The notes under the pieces were generated by a model. The model worked only from the letters and a program-made list of their open reading frames with translations. It did not search any database and was not told the DNA's origin. A program made the position numbers and the translations under genes. A stretch of DNA of 39,182 bases from Rikenella microfusus (GTDB lineage: Bacteria; Bacteroidota; Bacteroidia; Bacteroidales; DYQK01). Numbering within the stretch: the first letter of the stretch is position 1; every line of letters begins with the position of its first letter. Where the stretch lies: NCBI GenBank assembly GCA_020719385.1, contig DYQK01000016.1, positions 1 through 39,182 of the forward strand, written 5' to 3'. Below are positions 38,161 through 39,182 of this stretch, piece after piece.

Positions 38161-38781
38161 ATGAAAACTATTTTGACAAAACAAGATATTTTACAATTAA
38201 TTGCTGCCAGCAGCGAGAAATTCGACGCTGCTTTGCAGAAAAGCAACGAAGCAGCAGAGAAACGTAATGCAGAATTTGATGCCGCTTTGCAGAAAAGTAA
38301 TGCCGAACTGAGGCAACAGATGAAGGAATTGAACAAAAAAATGGGCGACCTAACCGACACAATGGGCGAATTTGCCGAAGGACAAGTTAAACCCAAGATT
38401 TTAGAAATGTTTCGCGAGCGCGGCATCGAATTAGAGGAAACTCACGAACACGTAAAAATCAAAAAAAACGGAAAATTATATGTCGAAATAGATTTGTTAC
38501 TCGTCAATACCAAATTTATGATAGTTCTTGAGGTGAAAAATACGCTTCAACAGAAACACATTGACGAGCATCTCAAGCGTTTAGACAAATTGAAAACATT
38601 TTGTCCCTCGTCAATGAAAGGTTTTAGACTTCTCGGTGCTGTTGCGGGAATGGTCGTTTGCGAAAGTGTCGAGAAATATGCGTTCAAAAAAGGTTTTTTT
38701 GTGATTCGTCCCAAAGGTGAGGGAATAATTATCTCAAATAAACGCAATTTTAAATTTCAAGAATGGAAAATTGAAAAATAA
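38161..38781 (+). CDS. PD-(D/E)xK nuclease-fold protein with coiled-coil N-terminus (DUF3782-like)
   Basis: The start chosen is the ATG at 38161 (MKTILTKQDILQLIAAS), 206 residues, 41 bases after a good promoter; the longer frame from 37957 would run through that promoter. Residues 15-75 are a coiled coil containing two copies of FDAALQKSN (21-29 and 39-47). The C-terminal half has the nuclease-like core: EIDLLL with Glu109/Asp111, then VLEVKN with Glu124 and Lys126, as in the PD-(D/E)xK superfamily, followed by a helix HIDEHLKRLDKLK. Proteins of this type are very common in Bacteroidota and cyanobacteria, often in many copies; their target is unknown. No signal peptide. Confidence 0.78.
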   Translation: MKTILTKQDILQLIAASSEKFDAALQKSNEAAEKRNAEFDAALQKSNAELRQQMKELNKKMGDLTDTMGEFAEGQVKPKILEMFRERGIELEETHEHVKIKKNGKLYVEIDLLLVNTKFMIVLEVKNTLQQKHIDEHLKRLDKLKTFCPSSMKGFRLLGAVAGMVVCESVEKYAFKKGFFVIRPKGEGIIISNKRNFKFQEWKIEK

Positions 38782-38816
38782 TTTCATTTTTTACAAATAA
38801 TTTCGAAAAATATTTG

Positions 38817-38849
38817 TTTTTTCGAAAACTTTTTTTTATATTTGCCGCA
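38817..38849 (+). promoter_or_regulatory. Promoter of the WD40 gene, near-duplicate of 38094-38125
   Basis: The -7 box TATATTTG is at 38837-38844, followed by CCGCA and preceded by TTTTTTCGAAAACTT. It lies 23 bases before the ATG at 38867. Confidence 0.65.
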
Positions 38850-38890
38850 ACTAATTTTTTACGAAAATGAAAAACGTATTTATTCGATTA

Positions 38891-38952
38891 AACTCTGTCA
38901 GGTTATAAAAAACTCGACAAAAAACCTAACAGGGTTTCGAAGAAACCTGTTA
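38891..38952 (+). repeat. 62-base palindromic insertion (MITE/REP-like) with TTA duplication
   Basis: The segment contains CTAACAGG/CCTGTTAG (38926-38933 and 38946-38953) and a second CTGTCAGGTT half-palindrome that pairs imperfectly with AACCTAACAG. TTA occurs directly before it (38888-38890) and at its end (38950-38952), like a target-site duplication. It encodes no protein. Confidence 0.65.
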
Positions 38953-39024
38953 GCGTTTACACTATTCCTCTTTTTTGCTGCTGCGCACCTTGCCGCCCAA
39001 GAACTCGTATTAACCCCAAACATC

Positions 39025-39182
39025 GGACATACAGATGATGTTAATTCTGTGTGTTTCTCCCCCGATGGAAAATACATCGCTTCGGGAAGTGGAGACAATA
39101 CTGTCAAAATTTGGGAAGCAAAGACAGGAAAAGAGATAACGACATTCAGAGGACATACAAACGATGTTAATTCTGTGTGTTT
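39025..39182 (+). repeat. 126-base tandem WD40 DNA repeat (runs off the edge)
   Basis: GGACATACA starts at 39025 and again at 39151. The following 23 bases are nearly the same, including GATGTTAATTCTGTGTGTTT. The period is 42 codons, one propeller blade. Confidence 0.8.

Follow-up and report, generated by a model that had tools for sequence, protein, structure and literature searches.

A 71-nt copy of a repeated palindrome lies between the sole conventional start codon of a predicted exported WD40 gene and its signal-peptide core, close to the end of the window, i.e. the whole stretch of 39,182 nucleotides analysed here. The segment belongs to a repeat family of the genome, its right boundary is fixed by aligned copies, and the reading frames on its two sides conflict. 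The family is best read as REP-like and lineage-specific, and this copy probably silences the WD40 gene as assembled; inactivation is the likeliest present state of the gene rather than a proven one. The window corresponds to contig C225, one of 288 in a genome of 3,657,117 bases, and stops with that contig at position 39182, which truncates the WD40 gene about 220 bases past the core hairpin. The features of the locus are as follows.

38813 to 38844, forward strand: Bacteroidetes-type promoter, TTTG (38813-38816), 20-nt spacer and TATATTTG (38837-38844), letters checked
38867 to 38908, forward strand: short frame opened by the sole conventional start codon, MKNVFIRLNSVRL followed by a stop, letters checked
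38889 to 38959, forward strand: repeat copy of 71 nt; its terminal arms, TAAACTCTGTCAGGTT / AACCTGTTAGCGTTTA, define the left end, and the alignment of 13 copies defines the right end
38890 to 38935, reverse strand: left part of the copy, an inverted match to the linker and arm found in double-hairpin copies (37/46 for C45b, 36/46 for C139b)
38891 to 38952, forward strand: segment delimited by the first-pass annotation, its right end falling within the conserved GTTAGCGTTTA
38905 to 38964, forward strand: ungapped match (50/60) to C139:4429-4488, which starts with ATG where the window has ATA
38918 to 38959, forward strand: core hairpin, 42/42 identical to C139:4547-4588; 38920-38959 is 40/40 identical to a second copy on that contig
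38953 to 39182, forward strand: WD40 frame, comprising the signal-peptide core and the first WD40 repeats (Pfam WD40, E 1.9e-18), cut at the contig end

The repeat copy and its family

The outer arms of the copy (38889-38904/38944-38959) are 16 nt long and 81% complementary, and a second palindrome with the same arm length and percentage is found at 38921-38936/38943-38958. The palindromic character ascribed to the segment by the first-pass annotation is borne out by these two arm pairs and by the predicted fold of the single-stranded DNA (38886-38962), which reaches -13.1 kcal/mol (z -4.67), with none of 200 shuffles as stable. The RNA fold (38849-39010; -31.3, z -2.22, 3/200 shuffles as stable) is less striking. 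Within the window, the two-arm pattern has one site on both strands together and none in 100 shuffles. The half-site alone matches four times, against a chance mean of 1.47, and is not significant, as 7 of 100 shuffles also reach four.

The search of the segment against the rest of the genome, suggested at the outset, identifies it as a repeat: the region 38860-38990 has at least 18 matches in its own genome (40 of 63 candidates scored), and 13 copies could be aligned. The two-arm pattern gives 7 matches and its backwards control none, the left hairpin of the family gives 9 matches with 0 in controls, and the strict pattern gives 11. For the half-site with one mismatch, 58 matches stand against 21 in controls, and single half-sites are thus not all meaningful. 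The building block of the repeat is a hairpin module, AACCTAACAGSGTTT-loop-AAACCTGTTAGCGTTTA, which occurs alone or with a second hairpin. Judged by eye, five copies are single hairpins (C61, C149a, C243, C249, C133) and five are double (C45b, C139b, C149b, C149c, C149d); the C139a copy comes after a tandem array of half-sites, and the C45a copy has an N run upstream. The window copy combines the core hairpin with a left part that corresponds, in inverted orientation, to the linker plus arm seen in the double-hairpin copies.

The right boundary follows from the alignment. The block GTTAGCGTTTA, which contains the TTA at 38950-38952, is present in 13/13 copies, the next base being A in 12 and C in the window; consequently, the element ends near 38959 and this TTA belongs to it. 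Read by eye from the aligned copies, the ends are TAAAC and GTTTA, and the bases flanking the 71-nt element are GAT and CAC.

With one base tested per copy, the window copy alone overlaps an ORF of at least 90 codons, the other 12 of 13 overlapping none. A further copy sits in a 66-codon open frame on C139 (4429-4627, MKNSTKNLTGYVKNLSAF...), which consists largely of half-sites of the window repeat in one phase, opening at ATG and running through five further half-sites. On C149 (19516-21341), three near-identical double-hairpin copies occur in one orientation between successive small genes. These copies prompted a comparison with the attC consensus of integrons, and an attC site was set aside, the conserved part exceeding the attC core end and single-hairpin copies occurring elsewhere. 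Rfam gave no match at gathering score for four loci (15,574 bases).

Beyond this genome, the strict pattern occurs in 3 of 393 genomes of the order, including its own with 11 matches; the others have 3 and 1 and both belong to one other family. A somewhat looser pattern is present in 3 of 60 genomes, its own included. The compared genomes (392 others in the strict and 59 others in the looser search) all lie outside its genus and family, and the WD40 gene itself was sought in its own genome. In a public genome collection, which may omit records close to that of the window, five matching stretches were found in three uncultured Bacteroidota/Bacteroidales assemblies. In two uncultured Bacteroidota assemblies, the hairpin is embedded in a repeat about 165 bases long, which starts with AACCTGAYC and ends with ATTCAGGTTA. 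Viral contigs contain no exact match to the strict pattern, and a literature search returned no paper title naming this repeat family.

Start codon and reading frames of the WD40 gene

The letters ATG (38867-38869), TTA (38888-38890), TTA (38950-38952) and GCG (38953-38955) are present, and the ATG frame running to the first TTA differs from the WD40 coding frame that resumes at GCG, as the first-pass annotation had stated; the ATG is followed by seven codons, not eight. The ATG frame stops at 38908, and the WD40 frame contains no ATG, GTG or TTG between 38845 and 38975. From TTG 38842 onwards the WD40 frame also stays open across the element, but this TTG was rejected as a start codon because it lies within the promoter box TATATTTG. 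The arrangement of TTTG, 20 nt and this box upstream of ATG 38867 fits the Bacteroidetes promoter consensus and spacing. Taking into account that the phylum lacks Shine-Dalgarno sequences, according to PMC6847099, the missing Shine-Dalgarno sequence is uninformative on the start site.

Joining the flanks without 38891-38952 brings the frames into phase, as had been reported, and yields MKNVFIRLAFTLFLFFAAAHLAAQELV, a credible signal peptide judged by hydrophobicity only. The best 12-residue hydrophobic stretch scores 2.43 after this cut versus 2.15 after the 71-nt cut, which restores the phase as well. Exact restoration of the frame had been taken as a sign of insertion; the phase itself holds, whereas its evidential weight does not, since the prior chance is about 1/3 and 6 of the 483 cut pairs tried around the element, the original one included, give both phase and a 3-nt repeat. 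Restored phase is therefore weak evidence, compatible with an insertion without proving one. The frame disruption attributed to the element likewise stands as regards the ATG frame, but through a length of 71 nt (2 modulo 3) instead of 62.

As assembled, the 71-nt element puts the sole conventional start codon out of the WD40 frame, so that the gene is probably silenced or nearly so. The copy lies at the 5' end of the coding region of this exported gene, in the order start codon, copy, signal-peptide core, and may have arrived recently; the 42/42 identity of its core hairpin with another copy suggests recent spread. It could have spread in REP fashion, either by a transposase acting in trans or by template switching, and expression of the WD40 gene would then be lost. 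This reading is favoured by the genomic matches, the aligned copies and the zero control for the two-arm pattern, by the early stop of the ATG frame together with the missing conventional start in the WD40 frame, by the strong single-strand fold, and by the window copy being the only one to overlap a long ORF.

Several observations point the other way. No relative showed an empty site, the compared genomes all being from other genera and families. Besides running open through the element, the WD40 frame has 76 codons without a stop from 38953, an observation tempered by the 2 and 3 stops of the other two frames. The left half of the copy departs from the standard family form, and a second copy lies in the open frame on C139. 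Finally, the transposon search in the genome, which covered the Y1_Tnp family only, found two loci, one with a TAG inside, and neither carries these repeats: around both, the eight motifs searched gave only one GCGTTTA. Upstream of one Y1-transposase gene (C57:1-744), a GTAG-tagged palindrome of other sequence (GTAGGGACGGGTTGCAACCCGTCCCTAC) is present, as expected of a REP-associated transposase.

Related gene starts and alternative readings

A 33-nt piece of the signal-peptide DNA is found twice in the genome, in the window and on C45 (33/33), each time behind the hairpin; at the C45 site it is not covered by any ORF of 90 codons. The arrangement may thus predate a single recent event, which counts against the favoured reading. 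The gene upstream of the WD40 gene (window 38161-38781, MKTILTKQDILQLIAAS...) looks, by eye, like a paralogue of a gene beside the C45 repeat copy (L027 2525-3082); its protein has no Pfam match. In the WD40 paralogue on C202 the signal peptide, MKTNIFFIFFILFFATTTANAQE, is plain, and the leader contains half-sites. Over 50 codons of the WD40 part compared with this paralogue, differences at codon positions 1, 2 and 3 number 13, 9 and 15, a distribution that says little about selection.

In the C95 paralogue, the ATG is followed in frame by a palindrome pair of another kind and by CCTGACAGCGTTT, in the signal-peptide region; the frame is open for 345 codons and has no other ATG, GTG or TTG ahead of the signal-peptide core. 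This second palindrome family, CCCACGA...TCGTGGG, occurs directly behind the start codons of exported genes at C95:7129-7299, C178:2398-2555, C121:6053-6166 and C147:21168-21279. The 5' cassette is common to C95 and C178, where 178 of 189 aligned bases are identical with 9 gap positions. On C178 it precedes a different exported ORF with an ATG of its own, so that the piece need not be translated there. On C121, a similar piece continues into another signal peptide, with the contig ending after 52 codons, whereas the C147 piece is a relic with a stop after 11 codons.

These gene starts tentatively suggest that, in exported genes of this genome, the region separating the start codon from the signal-peptide core might be a recurrent, tolerated landing site for two palindrome families, the arms of which (NLTAF, ILTAF, NLLAF) would supply signal-peptide codons, and that 5' cassettes with promoter, start codon and palindromes could have been copied before different exported genes (C95, C178, C121). 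We regard this pattern as doubtful: no such repeat is present within the 280 bases examined at the exported WD40 genes of C250 and C197, and the ATG-started frames of 60 codons that were tested do not contain the remaining matches of the second palindrome, both of which argue against it. If true, it would make it possible to study the remodelling of export signals by repeats while the mature protein is left untouched.

For the window copy, the gene starts above bear on an unlikely alternative, in which the element would be a tolerated N-terminal extension of the Rickettsia palindromic element type. Translation would begin at a rare start, ATA 38905 or CTG 38947, giving (M)KNSTKNLTGFRRNLLAFTLFLFFAAAHLAAQE or a shorter form, with repeat codons as the first signal-peptide codons. 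The open WD40 frame agrees with this, and read from either position it contains a hydrophobic stretch of 2.59, above the value reached when the element is removed. The C139:4429 match, moreover, has ATG at the position of the ATA and opens its 66-codon frame there, and the palindromes of the C95 paralogue remain in frame. The extension would nevertheless have to do without any conventional start between 38845 and 38975, and the rarity of ATA and CTG as start codons argues against it. The pattern search from the ATA to the C139 ATG, in which the window match has 1 mismatch, allowed 3 mismatches and gave 3 matches in the controls too.

An assembly or consensus error at the junction, with two loci joined or bases mis-called, is improbable. 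The perfect identity of the core hairpin to the C139 copies, the contig end within the same gene, the 288 contigs of the assembly and the N run just upstream of the similar C45 locus are what such an error might leave. Against it, the identical signal-peptide DNA behind the C45 hairpin indicates that the right-side neighbourhood is probably real. The proposal made at the outset, a 62-base MITE at 38891-38952 flanked by a TTA target duplication, is hardly credible. TTA does occur at both places and the cut restores the phase, but the right-hand TTA is part of the block conserved in 13/13 copies, the terminal arms extend the element to 38889-38959, and five other cuts among the 483 do equally well; the copy alignment thus rejects both the extent and the duplication. 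Silencing by a REP-like repeat remains the preferred reading.

Comparison with known repeat systems

As described in PMC3733652 and PMC3116915, REPs and REPINs resemble the window repeat in being many-copy short hairpins, single and paired, mostly intergenic with some in genes. REPs lie mostly downstream of coding regions and some inside genes (PMC3733652), and REPINs are REP doublets (PMC3116915). Copy number and a location mostly outside genes agree with these systems, although only about a dozen full copies exist. The ends, TAAAC/GTTTA by eye, lack the GTAG tag, and the repeat is therefore called REP-like and not a member of the GTAG superfamily. Neither Y1-transposase locus is flanked by it; since some REP families, the CGTC repeats among them, have no dedicated transposase (PMC3733652), the missing repeat-flanked RAYT weighs little.

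Rickettsia palindromic elements, as described in PMC10969869, share with the window copy a palindromic repeat within a protein-coding region and an open frame through it, and their in-frame insertions are frequent. The window repeat is unrelated to them in sequence and shorter, and the host frame is lost relative to ATG 38867, being kept only with a non-standard start; its ends also differ from the CGTC end given in PMC3733652. The enterobacterial RU-1 (ERIC), RU-2 and RU-3 are unrelated longer sequences fused in frame, according to PMC2759123.

With MITEs, as outlined in PMC10969869, the repeat shares its shortness, non-coding nature and imperfect terminal inverted arms (16 nt, 81%), and it differs in having no demonstrated target-site duplication (flanks GAT and CAC) or identified parent transposon. 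From the original designation as a small element of MITE or REP type, the small repeated palindrome is supported. REP-like fits better than MITE, because no target duplication is demonstrable, copies are mostly intergenic and hairpins occur both singly and paired. In-frame fusions of repeats, one of them to a predicted signal peptide, have already been published (PMC10969869, PMC2759123); the window copy would add one more small palindromic repeat that disrupts or re-tunes the start of an exported protein to a kind of repeat already known.
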